Below, piece after piece: positions 2,613 to 7,903 of a DNA stretch of 52,425 nucleotides. The DNA is from an uncultured beta proteobacterium. Lineage in GTDB: Bacteria; Pseudomonadota; Gammaproteobacteria; Burkholderiales; Nitrosomonadaceae. Every line of letters starts with the position of its first letter. Position 1 is the first letter of the stretch. The translations under genes were made by a program, and so were the position numbers. The notes under the pieces are model-generated. The model worked only from the letters and a program-made list of their open reading frames with translations. It was not told where the DNA came from and did not search any database. The stretch is from positions 1-52,425 of the forward strand of contig CAADGS010000015.1 of NCBI GenBank assembly GCA_900696615.1, in the 5' to 3' direction.

Positions 2613-4034
2613 ATGGCCGTTAAAACATACAACGCCGGCGTGAAAGAATACCGGCAAACCTACTGGACGCCCGAATACACCCCTTTGGATACCGATATTC
2701 TGGCATGTTTCAAAATCGTTCCACAACCTGGCGTTGACCGTGAAGAAGCAGCTGCGGCCGTTGCGGCGGAATCCTCTACCGGTACCTGGACAACCGTTTG
2801 GACTGACTTGCTGACCGACTTGGATTATTACAAAGGCCGCGCTTACCGTATCGAAGACGTACCTGGTGATGACACTTGTTTCTATGCTTTCATAGCATAC
2901 CCGATCGATCTGTTCGAAGAAGGATCCGTTGTCAACGTGTTTACCTCCCTCGTTGGCAACGTATTCGGCTTCAAAGCGATCCGTGCGCTACGCTTGGAAG
3001 ATGTTCGCTTCCCGATCGCTTTTGTAAAAACCTGCGGCGGCCCTCCAAATGGTATTCAAGTAGAACGCGACAAACTGAACAAATACGGTCGTGCATTACT
3101 TGGTTGCACCATCAAACCGAAACTGGGTTTGTCAGCTAAAAATTATGGTCGCGCCGTTTATGAATGCCTGCGCGGTGGCTTGGATTTGACCAAAGACGAC
3201 GAAAACATCAATAGCCAACCATTTATGCGCTGGCGTCAACGTTTCGAATTCGTGATGGAAGCCATTCACAAAGCAGAACGTGAAACCGGCGAACGCAAAG
3301 GGCACTATTTGAACGTAACGGCGCCGACTCCGGAAGAAATGTACAAGCGCGCTGAGTTTGCGAAAGAATTGGGTGCGCCGATTATTATGCATGACTACCT
3401 GACAGGCGGTTTCTGCGCCAACACTGGCTTGGCAAACTGGTGCCGTGACAACGGTATCCTATTACACATCCATCGTGCCATGCATGCGGTAATTGACCGT
3501 AATCCGCATCACGGTATCCATTTCCGTGTATTGGCTAAAGCTTTACGTTTGTCTGGTGGTGATCACCTGCACTCCGGAACCGTAGTCGGTAAATTGGAAG
3601 GTGATCGTGCCGCAACGCTCGGATGGATCGACATTATGCGCGACAGCTTCATCAAAGAAGATCGCAGCCGCGGCATTATGTTCGATCAAGATTGGGGTTC
3701 TATGCCCGGTGTTTTCCCGGTTGCATCCGGCGGTATTCACGTATGGCATATGCCTGCATTGGTTGCGATCTTTGGTGATGATGCCTGTTTGCAATTCGGT
3801 GGTGGTACATTAGGCCATCCATGGGGTAATGCAGCCGGTGCGGCAGCTAATCGCGTGGCACTGGAAGCTTGCGTCGAAGCACGTAATCAAGGTGTCGAAA
3901 TCGAGAAGAAAGGTAAAGAAATTCTAACCGCTGCGGCAAAACATAGCCCAGAACTCAAAATCGCGATGGAAACCTGGAAAGAAATCAAGTTTGAATTCGA
4001 CACCGTCGACAAACTGGATGTCGCGCACAAATAA
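2613..4034 (+). CDS. cbbL: Ribulose-1,5-bisphosphate carboxylase large subunit, form IA (green-like)
   Basis: 473 aa; '[24 protein letters not shown]' and '[26 protein letters not shown]' motifs. Confidence 0.99.
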
Positions 4035-4096: not shown

Positions 4097-4453
4097 ATGT
4101 CAGAAATGTTGGATTATAAAAGCCGCCTCAGCGACCCTGCGAGCCGCAAATTTGAAACCTTTTCTTACTTGCCTTCAATGACTGCCAAACAGATTAAACA
4201 ACAGGTTGAATACATCGTCAAAAAAGGTTGGAATCCAGCAATTGAACACACCGAACCAGAGCACTTGATGGATAACTACTGGTATATGTGGAAATTGCCA
4301 ATGTTCGGCGAAACGGATGTCGATCGCATTTTAGCTGAAGCAGAAGCTTGTCATAAGGCCAATCCTAATAACCATGTACGTTTGATCGGTTATGACAATT
4401 TTTCGCAAAGCCAGGGTACATCAATGGTGATTTACCGCGGCAAAACGGTTTAA
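4097..4453 (+). CDS. cbbS: Ribulose-1,5-bisphosphate carboxylase small subunit
   Basis: 118 aa; '[35 protein letters not shown]' RbcS signature; directly downstream of cbbL. Confidence 0.98.
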
Positions 4454-4623
4454 GCAGCAAACGGGGTTCAAATCTGTGAAGTTGTGAAAAAACCTAATGA
4501 GCATTCCGACCGTAAGGCGGATAAGTCGCCGAAATTCTGAGCCTATTCAAGAAGACAAGGATCGGGTACGCCAAGCAAGCATTACGGATTGAGTAAGCAA
4601 CGGATTGTTTTACAACTTCTGAG

Positions 4624-4659
4624 ACCCCCTTTCCCCTTAACAGGGCGGGGGTTTTTTTT
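4624..4659 (+). terminator. Rho-independent terminator after cbbS
   Basis: ACCCCC...GGGGGT stem followed by TTTTTTTT. Confidence 0.8.
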
Positions 4660-4714
4660 GACCAGAATTCGGATTACAACCATTCGATAAAGACTGTTCT
4701 TACAGGAGTCTGTC

Positions 4715-5521
4715 ATGAGCAAAATCATTGACCAATATCGTATCAAGAAAGAACCTTATTACCATCCCGTCGGGGACGAAGTGAAACTTTATGAAGCCGC
4801 CTATTCAGTACGCATGCCAATGATGTTGAAAGGTCCGACCGGCTGCGGTAAAACCCGCTTTGTCGAATACATGGCATGGAAATTAAAAAAACCTCTGATC
4901 ACTGTCGCATGTAACGAAGACATGACGGCATCGGATCTGGTTGGCCGTTTCTTGCTGGATGCTAACGGCACACGCTGGCAAGATGGCCCATTAGCCGTCG
5001 CTGCGCGTTATGGCGCGATTTGTTATCTCGACGAAGTGGTCGAAGCGCGTCAGGACACCACCGTAGTCATCCATCCATTAACAGATAATCGCCGCGTATT
5101 ACCTCTGGAAAAGAAAGGCGAATTAGTCCAGGCGCACGAAGATTTTCAGATCGTTATTTCGTATAACCCCGGCTACCAAAGCTTAATGAAAGATCTGAAG
5201 CAATCGACCAAACAACGTTTTGGTGCGTTGGACTTCAATTACCCGAGTCATGAAATCGAAAGCGAAATCGTTGCACATGAATCCGGCGTTTCAACGGATA
5301 TTGCCGAAAAACTGGTATCGATCGCCGAACGCGCCCGCAATTTGAAAGGTCACGGCTTGGATGAAGGTATTTCTACACGGATGCTGATTTACGCCGGTAG
5401 TCTCATCGCCAAGAAAGTCGATGCGCATGCCGCCTGCCGCGTGGCCTTGGTACGGCCTATCACCGACGATCCGGATATGCGCGACGCACTGGATGCAGCA
5501 GTCAGCACTTTCTTTAACTAA
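4715..5521 (+). CDS. cbbQ: RuBisCO activation AAA+ ATPase (NorQ/MoxR type)
   Basis: Walker A '[10 protein letters not shown]', Walker B '[10 protein letters not shown]'; downstream of cbbLS. Confidence 0.95.
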
Positions 5522-5575: not shown

Positions 5576-7903
5576 ATGAGTGTCAATTTAGACGATTACA
5601 AAGAATTACTTGAAGATCTGCAACCGGAATCGATTGAATTGCTTCATCATGCTTGGCCGGAAGCGGTTAAAGTATTCTCGCCTCGCGGCTTGGATAATTA
5701 TTTAAAGGGTGCTTCAGCCATTCACGGTTTGGGGCGCGGACGCAGTGTTGTCGATTGCTGGATCGATGAAATTCCGCTCGTCGCCAAGGAAATTGGCGAA
5801 GATGTTATTGGTGATTTGGCAACCTCCGTACTTTCACTGGCTTCGAGAACTTCTGGGGCGGTCATAGAGCTAGTTTTGGCAACATCACCAACCGCTGCAA
5901 AACGTCTAGGTGACGCACATCTGTTCCAGAATTACCTGCAATTCCTGAATAACCTCATTGCGCAAGCGCCGCGGGGCATTCGTCCCATGCTTAGTAAACT
6001 GGATATCTTGTTTGGACAGCTTACACTAGGCGGCTTGCGCCGCTGGGCAATGTGGGGGGCACACGCTCACCGAACTGATTACGAAGAGCAAATCAAGTAT
6101 TTCGGATTGGAATCCAAAGAATCACTCGCGGTTTTACAAAAAGAGCGTAAAGGTACGTTGTTTGTCGATATACAGCGCCGCATTAATATGTATTTGCGCG
6201 CGCTGTGGGGACGGGATTTTTTTATGAAGCCCACATCCGGGGATTTTGAAACACGCGAAGGCTATAAACCGTTTATTGAAAACTATTTTATCCATCTACC
6301 GGACGCTTATGACAGTCATGGCGATATTTCCGCCACGGAAGTGTATCGTGCCGCTGCTGCGCATGCTGCTGCACATTTGGTGGAAACCAAAGAAAGAATT
6401 TCCGCAGAAGCATTAAACCCAATGCAGATGGCGGTAATTGCTGTTATTGAAGATGCGCGCATCGAAGAATTGTCGATACGCCGCTTTCCCGGCTTGCGCA
6501 AAACCTGGTCTGCGTTGCATGACGCCACATCGGATATGAACGCCTCCATGGGTGACTATCTCAACCGTTTGGCACGCGCGTTGCTCGATTCAGATTATAA
6601 GGATAATGATCCGTGGATTGCCAAAGGACGCAAGCTGTTTAAATCTGCACAAAATAATCTGTATTGCCATAAAATCTCATGGGATATCGGCGTGCAACTC
6701 GCACACGATTTTATGGATAAAAAGATTCCATACAATCCGCGTACCGACATACAGAACGCGCCTTATCGCGATGACAATCGTTATTTCTGGGAATTCGAGG
6801 AATTTGATTTCGACAAATCGATTTCCGCAGGCTACGATGCTCCGAAGCAAGTACGCAAATACGTCAACGTAATGGAGTTCGCCAACGAAATCGATGTCGA
6901 AACTGCCGGAGACGATGCACAAGAAATCTGGGTTATGGGAAGCGAATTCTTCCCATACGAAGATATGGGTGTCTCATACAATCAGATGGATGGTAAAGAA
7001 CCTGTTTCAGCACCCTACCACTATTCCGAATGGGATTACCAGATTCAATTAGAGCGCCCCGATTGGGCCACGGTCCAGGAAAAACGCGCCAAGCTCGGCG
7101 ATATGCAATGCATTGACGATATTGCCAATCAATATAAACGTGAAATTGCGCGAATGAAATTTTTGCTCGATGCGATGCAACCACAAGGCACACGCCGCAT
7201 CCGTAAACTGGAAGATGGCGATGAAATCGACATCAACGCCGCTATTCGTTCAATGATCGATATCCGTATGGGTATGCAGCCTGATCCGCGCATCATGATG
7301 CGTTCGGTACGCAAAGTGCGAGACATTTCGGTGCTGGTATTGTTAGATTTATCGGAATCGACCAACGATAAAGTCGCCGGACATGACTATTCCGTGTTGG
7401 ATCTGACGCGCCAAGCAACGGTATTGCTGGCCAACGCTATCAACAAAATTGGCGATCCATTTGCGATTCATGGCTTCTGTTCCGACGGCCGTCATGATGT
7501 TGAATATTACCGTTTTAAGGATTTCGATCAACCGTATGACGAGATCCCAAAAGCCAAGCTGGCCGGTATGAGCGGACAACTATCAACTCGCATGGGTGCC
7601 GCAATGCGCCACGCTTCGCATTACCTGAAATTACAAAAATCGGCGAAGAAACTATTACTGGTGATCACTGACGGCGAACCAGCCGATGTTGATGTACGCG
7701 ATCCGCAATACCTTCGTCACGACACCAAAAAAGCAGTAGAGGAAGCCGGGCGCTCTGGCATCATTACTTACTGCATGAGCCTTGATCCGCGCGCGGATCA
7801 ATACGTATCAAGGATTTTCGGTGAACGCAATTATTTGGTGGTGGATCACGTGGAACGATTGCCGGAGAAATTGCCGGTGTTGTATGCGGGGTTAACAAGG
7901 TAA
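5576..7903 (+). CDS. cbbO: RuBisCO activation protein with von Willebrand A domain (NorD-like)
   Basis: 775 aa; C-terminal MIDAS 'VLVLLDLSESTND' and 'LLLVITDGEPADVD'; follows cbbQ. Confidence 0.95.
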   Translation: MSVNLDDYKELLEDLQPESIELLHHAWPEAVKVFSPRGLDNYLKGASAIHGLGRGRSVVDCWIDEIPLVAKEIGEDVIGDLATSVLSLASRTSGAVIELVLATSPTAAKRLGDAHLFQNYLQFLNNLIAQAPRGIRPMLSKLDILFGQLTLGGLRRWAMWGAHAHRTDYEEQIKYFGLESKESLAVLQKERKGTLFVDIQRRINMYLRALWGRDFFMKPTSGDFETREGYKPFIENYFIHLPDAYDSHGDISATEVYRAAAAHAAAHLVETKERISAEALNPMQMAVIAVIEDARIEELSIRRFPGLRKTWSALHDATSDMNASMGDYLNRLARALLDSDYKDNDPWIAKGRKLFKSAQNNLYCHKISWDIGVQLAHDFMDKKIPYNPRTDIQNAPYRDDNRYFWEFEEFDFDKSISAGYDAPKQVRKYVNVMEFANEIDVETAGDDAQEIWVMGSEFFPYEDMGVSYNQMDGKEPVSAPYHYSEWDYQIQLERPDWATVQEKRAKLGDMQCIDDIANQYKREIARMKFLLDAMQPQGTRRIRKLEDGDEIDINAAIRSMIDIRMGMQPDPRIMMRSVRKVRDISVLVLLDLSESTNDKVAGHDYSVLDLTRQATVLLANAINKIGDPFAIHGFCSDGRHDVEYYRFKDFDQPYDEIPKAKLAGMSGQLSTRMGAAMRHASHYLKLQKSAKKLLLVITDGEPADVDVRDPQYLRHDTKKAVEEAGRSGIITYCMSLDPRADQYVSRIFGERNYLVVDHVERLPEKLPVLYAGLTR

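Follow-up and report, generated by a model that had tools for sequence, protein, structure and literature searches.

A probable decayed MITE and a conserved predicted terminator between cbbS and cbbQ in Nitrosomonas

The spacer between the genes for the RuBisCO small subunit and the RuBisCO activase subunit in a Nitrosomonas operon raises the question of which of its elements could set the expression of cbbQO relative to cbbLS. We analysed a window of 52,425 nt (the whole stretch of DNA under study), which is one contig of a 2.58-Mb, 159-contig Nitrosomonas assembly. The genes of the locus, which we take to be cbbL, cbbS, cbbQ, and a cbbO-like gene from the first-pass annotation, gene order, and family knowledge, are listed with the other features in Table 1. 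Homologues of cbbQ were found in 85/85 genomes of the genus, and a second cbbQ-like AAA+ gene with 53% identity is present in the same genome (G000:C75:3156–3911).

Table 1. Features of the cbbS–cbbQ junction and neighbouring genes in the window
Feature	Position	Strand	Basis or remark
cbbL	2613–4034	same direction as cbbS, cbbQ, and cbbO-like	ORF
cbbS, form IA RuBisCO small subunit	4097–4453	+	ORF; homologues in Nitrosomonas
cbbS stop codon TAA	4451–4453	+	
Segment A, CGGGGTTC, candidate antiterminator 5′ arm	4462–4469	+	Complementary to the terminator 5′ arm
Left putative target-site duplication, CTGTG	4474–4478	+	4/5 match to the right copy
Probable decayed 140-nt MITE, AAGTTGTGAAAAAA...TTTTACAACTT	4479–4618	+	Homology to the L193/L263 family; empty site in relatives
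Left terminal inverted repeat	4479–4490	+	Equals the 5′ arm of the first-pass stem
Right terminal inverted repeat	4607–4618	+	Equals the 3′ arm of the first-pass stem
Right putative target-site duplication, CTGAG	4619–4623	+	Last 3 nt also begin the terminator stem
Predicted intrinsic terminator, hairpin and U run	4621–4659	+	Fold −18.0 kcal/mol; conserved in relatives
Terminator 5′ arm (B)	4621–4629	+	
cbbQ, RuBisCO activase AAA+ subunit, downstream gene	4715–5521	+	ORF
cbbO-like gene	5576–7903	same direction as cbbL, cbbS, and cbbQ	ORF

The spacer and its predicted fold

The cbbS–cbbQ spacer is 261 nt in length (4454–4714) and free of ORFs of 60 aa or longer, in agreement with the ORF-free spacer of about 260 nt described in the first-pass annotation. 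That annotation proposed a structured RNA of about 117 nt closed by a stem between GAAGTTGTGAAAA (4478–4490) and TTTTACAACTTC (4608–4619), with GGCG (4516–4519) and CGCC (4527–4530) as inner self-complementary segments, and a strong intrinsic terminator behind it. All of these positions were correct. The terminator was also present, with a 9-bp outer stem, a 4-bp inner stem, and a U run of 8 T (4652–4659); a GC-rich hairpin is followed by a U run, as expected of an intrinsic terminator.

The closing stem was predicted to form (P about 0.96), but the fold of the 261-nt spacer was not more stable than those of dinucleotide shuffles (z = −0.54), and the same applied to the 150-nt part closed by the stem (z = −1.30). 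A search of Rfam gave 0 matches at the gathering score and no credible match at E values up to 10. No sigma-70-like promoter was found in the spacer.

Two further observations were made on the genes of the window. At loci L004–L013, cbbQ was 97–98% identical to that of the window, yet cbbS was just 82–83% identical; in other genomes, cbbS was 94–97% and cbbQ about 95% identical. These contrasting identities suggest that some members of the genus have had their cbbS, perhaps cbbLS, replaced through recombination. The ORF at 669–1379 on the minus strand ends at its C-terminus in a tandem repeat (STIDNRQ, three times) and is therefore probably an ORF read through a DNA tandem repeat.

Anatomy, relatives, and decay of the insert

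We collected cbbS–cbbQ spacers from Nitrosomonas loci and from those of other autotrophs. Most Nitrosomonas spacers were 105–130 nt in length and lacked the insert; a typical spacer consisted of a leader of about 20–40 nt, the terminator, and a region leading to the cbbQ start. The window and genome G021 carried an extra stretch of about 125–145 nt before the terminator. When the insert alone was searched against the 85 genus genomes, it was found in its own genome (G000) and in only one of the 84 others (G021), in addition to weak partial matches.

The insert has the anatomy of a MITE: it is short and without an ORF, carries terminal inverted repeats of 10–12 nt (AAGTTGTGAAAA and TTTTACAACTT), is flanked by a target-site duplication, and faces an empty site in relatives. 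The duplication CTGTG/CTGAG has one mismatch in five positions, which lies in the left copy. One of the weak partial matches, an intergenic 139-nt element of genome G070 (L193), aligned end to end with the insert, with a z of 11.4 against dinucleotide shuffles (0 of 1000 shuffles scored as well) and a z of 6.0 when only the interior was aligned, i.e., with the terminal 16 nt removed on each side. Relatives of L193 occur in G070 (several copies), G002, and G003. Terminal repeats were likewise found in L193, L263, and L264, and these elements are flanked by 5-bp target duplications, which are perfect in L193 (CAAAG/CAAAG) and L263 (CAGAG/CAGAG) and read CTGAG/CTGAA in L264.

A profile search with the family HMM gave its best match at the right place with an E value of just 0.023, because the window copy has diverged strongly and the alignment of the family is poor. 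After this weak result, we scanned all 180-nt windows of the 52 kb on both strands with the family consensus. The insert scored 95.9, the best of 5,226 windows, against 54–61 for the next unrelated places and a background mean of 23.7 (sd 8.9). The consensus interior alone also scored best at the insert (60.8 vs 51.7). The exact subfamily is single-copy in its own genome, and a search for the exact terminal-repeat pattern across the genus gave no match. A literature search for MITEs in Nitrosomonas found none described. The insert is homologous to dispersed repeats with terminal repeats and 5-bp duplications, which indicates that the two arms of the stem in the first-pass annotation are terminal inverted repeats.

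The core of L193 and of the window insert also occurs in a larger repeat family whose ends are different (CTAAGGAAACGCTGATTAATT...). This third family (L232–L260) is multi-copy in many genomes, with as many as 84 first-look candidates in one genome, and is represented in the own genome by one core-related copy (G000:C116:16557–16638).

Other sequences have entered the same junction. G035, G036, and G040 carry a different, high-copy MITE (GTTGAAAAACG...GTTTTTCAAC) at this position; MITE-like copies of this family (L005:1251–1400 and others) were found in 73/85 Nitrosomonas genomes, with as many as about 100 first-look candidates in one genome. Common family membership of the window insert with L005 was not supported (z 1.8 overall and −0.6 for the interior), and the corresponding z values for the G021 insert were 4.8 and 1.9. 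L014 (in G034) and L181 (in G009) have additional sequence too, located downstream of the terminator. Sequence comparison indicates that repeats of different kinds have inserted at the cbbS–cbbQ junction in several lineages of Nitrosomonas.

We compared the insert with its only orthologue, in G021. The interior was 76.7% identical with 18 gapped bases, whereas the terminal repeats were 93.8% identical (30/32) and the flanks were better kept than the interior: 95% in the leader, 92.7% in the terminator, 96.4% in the rest of the spacer, and 96.9% in cbbS. By this comparison, the insert interior behaves as unconstrained DNA. The better conservation of the terminal repeats, seen in one comparison, might be a sign that the stem has some use.

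These data bear directly on the proposal that the 4478–4619 stem, together with the sequence it encloses, is a conserved attenuator or leader RNA acting on the terminator. The stem is predicted and its terminal repeats are conserved in the sole orthologue, but the insert is absent from 83 other Nitrosomonas genomes, is homologous to dispersed repeats, faces empty sites, folds no better than shuffles, decays in its interior, and has no credible Rfam match. We consider this proposal very improbable; the supposed 117-nt structured RNA appears to be a lineage-specific MITE copy present in 2/85 Nitrosomonas genomes.

The cbbS 3′ UTR as far as the terminator could also be released as a small RNA with a role of its own. 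A terminated transcript would have a structured 3′ tail, which the folded terminal repeats and terminator could protect. The insert sequence is, however, not conserved beyond G021, and neither a sigma-70-like promoter in the spacer nor an Rfam small RNA was found, so that we regard this as an unlikely account.

We therefore favour, with a probability of about 0.88, the reading that positions 4474–4623 represent an old insertion of a 140-nt MITE beside a conserved, probably functional terminator, and that the MITE probably plays no part in regulation by itself. The MITE would have been inserted between the cbbS stop and a terminator already in place; the CTGTG/CTGAG flanks would be its target-site duplication and the predicted stem its terminal inverted repeats.

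The terminator and a candidate antiterminator

A strong hairpin with a U run was found in 148/215 distinct cbbS–cbbQ spacers of beta- and gammaproteobacteria under uniform criteria, with the hairpin starting at most 50 nt from the cbbS stop; the MITE-bearing spacers were left out of the 148 because of this distance limit. Relatives without the insert retain the terminator, which indicates that it is independent of the insert. In a few lineages (L103, L136, L314, L315, L323, and L324), the spacer is 11–12 nt in length and without a terminator. The conservation of the terminator at this position across beta- and gammaproteobacteria suggests that the junction probably lowers cbbQO relative to cbbLS. 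Much of the cbbLS transcript most likely stops at the terminator, with a fraction reading on into cbbQO. The suggestion of the first-pass annotation that the spacer could set cbbQO against cbbLS is supported by conservation in regards to the terminator, and not in regards to the closing stem.

The idea of attenuation persists in another form, through a segment that the first-pass annotation did not name. Segment A begins 9 nt past the cbbS stop and is complementary to the terminator 5′ arm (B), and its sequence varies among lineages together with that arm: the pairs include GCGACGGG/CCCGTCGC, CGCGCGGCGG/CCGCTGCGCG, CGGGCAGGG/CCCTGCCCG, CGGAACA/TGTTCCG, CGGACA/TGTCCG, and CGGCCACGG/CCGTCGGCCG. 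We propose tentatively, at somewhat less than even odds, that A pairs with B as an antiterminator in an intercistronic attenuator: a ribosome finishing cbbS would hide A and permit termination, and a free A would allow more readthrough into cbbQO. This proposal complements the MITE reading, because the MITE sits between A and B.

We examined the coevolution of A and B in loci L062–L141 and L276–L404, with the stop codon set to TAA in every sequence. In the first swap test (20 clusters), A:B pairing exceeded that of shuffles, with no significant gain over swapped pairs. After this test, 110 spacers were added with the idea unchanged. In the resulting 53 clusters of beta- and gammaproteobacterial sequences, which are not phylogenetically independent, each cluster's own A:B pairs were better than permuted pairs (sum −646 vs −526; z = −7.2; p = 5e-5). 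The advantage of own pairs was also observed within the CCCCTG-type (z = −4.4) and CCCCCG-type (z = −2.7) terminators, and no effect was observed in a small control set of 21 terminators from the same kinds of genomes (z = −0.4). Against composition shuffles, the cluster mean z was −1.43, compared with −0.04 in the 21 controls (p = 1.7e-5). The swap test thus points to a mutually exclusive, coevolving structure, among related clusters and with modest pairing in Nitrosomonas (cluster median p 0.06).

Counted from the stop, the first base of A that pairs has a median position of +4, which a ribosome at the stop codon would cover. In 38/53 clusters, five or more A:B pairs are expected while the 3′ arm is still missing. 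A:B pairing is absent in some clusters, e.g., L068, L108, and L141, and the complete terminators are far more stable than A:B. The coevolution of A and B, absent in the controls, makes a switch plausible in which the antiterminator overlaps with a ribosome positioned at the cbbS stop. A literature search found no attenuator described at cbbS–cbbQ.

In the window, the A:B duplex has a predicted energy of −10.6 kcal/mol, and A and B are kept apart by the MITE; in five genomes, a MITE puts about 145–165 nt between them, which speaks against the attenuator. Before the 3′ arm is present, the MITE stem and A:B are both predicted (mean P of 0.72 over A). With the 3′ arm (C), the terminator is predicted to prevail (B:C 0.96; A:B 0.01).

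The simultaneous prediction of A:B and the stem, together with the terminal repeats that are better kept than the gapped interior, would fit a co-opted MITE, whose stem would bring A and B close together and thereby preserve the switch despite the insertion. This comparison comprises two sequences only, and shuffled inserts still permitted A:B in 26/60 cases in the window and in 11–14/60 in the other MITE-bearing genomes, although in just 2/60 in G021. A requirement for the MITE stem to hold A and B together is thus not supported beyond shuffles, except in G021, and we judge co-option unlikely.

A wider claim is that an intercistronic attenuator whose antiterminator arm is covered by the ribosome at the cbbS stop codon is common to the form IA RuBisCO operons of beta- and gammaproteobacteria, so that finished translation of cbbS tunes cbbQO; we regard it as possible though doubtful. 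The attenuator idea merits testing with segment A instead of the stem first proposed.

Comparison with known systems

Our analysis removes a false regulatory-RNA candidate, which is most probably the relic of a mobile element. Its replacement, a conserved and coevolving candidate terminator/antiterminator, should set the ratio of RuBisCO to activase, which matters too when cbb operons are moved to other hosts.

The insert resembles bacterial MITEs in its length of 140 nt, the lack of an ORF, its terminal repeats and 5-bp target copies, its genus-dispersed relatives, and the empty sites. It is unlike them in that the window copy is strongly decayed and is the sole member of its subfamily in its genome.

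Classical terminator/antiterminator attenuators likewise have two exclusive hairpins that share the terminator 5′ arm and, as predicted here, arms that coevolve. The candidate switch, deduced from sequence, differs from them in that it sits between two genes and not in a leader, and has no leader peptide. Operon-internal intrinsic (rho-independent) terminators have a GC-rich stem and a U run between co-oriented genes, as observed here; the cbbS–cbbQ terminator is distinct in its conservation over beta- and gammaproteobacteria and in the complementary segment at the stop codon.

The cbb2 operon of Acidithiobacillus ferrooxidans has the same gene order (cbbL2-S2-Q2-O2), and its transcriptional stops were predicted with Transterm (PMC2942843). 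In the available portion of that report, no antiterminator is described and no predicted stop is placed at cbbS–cbbQ. RT-PCR showed that cbb2 is one transcription unit (PMC2942843), and continuation from cbbS into cbbQ therefore occurs in at least one such operon.
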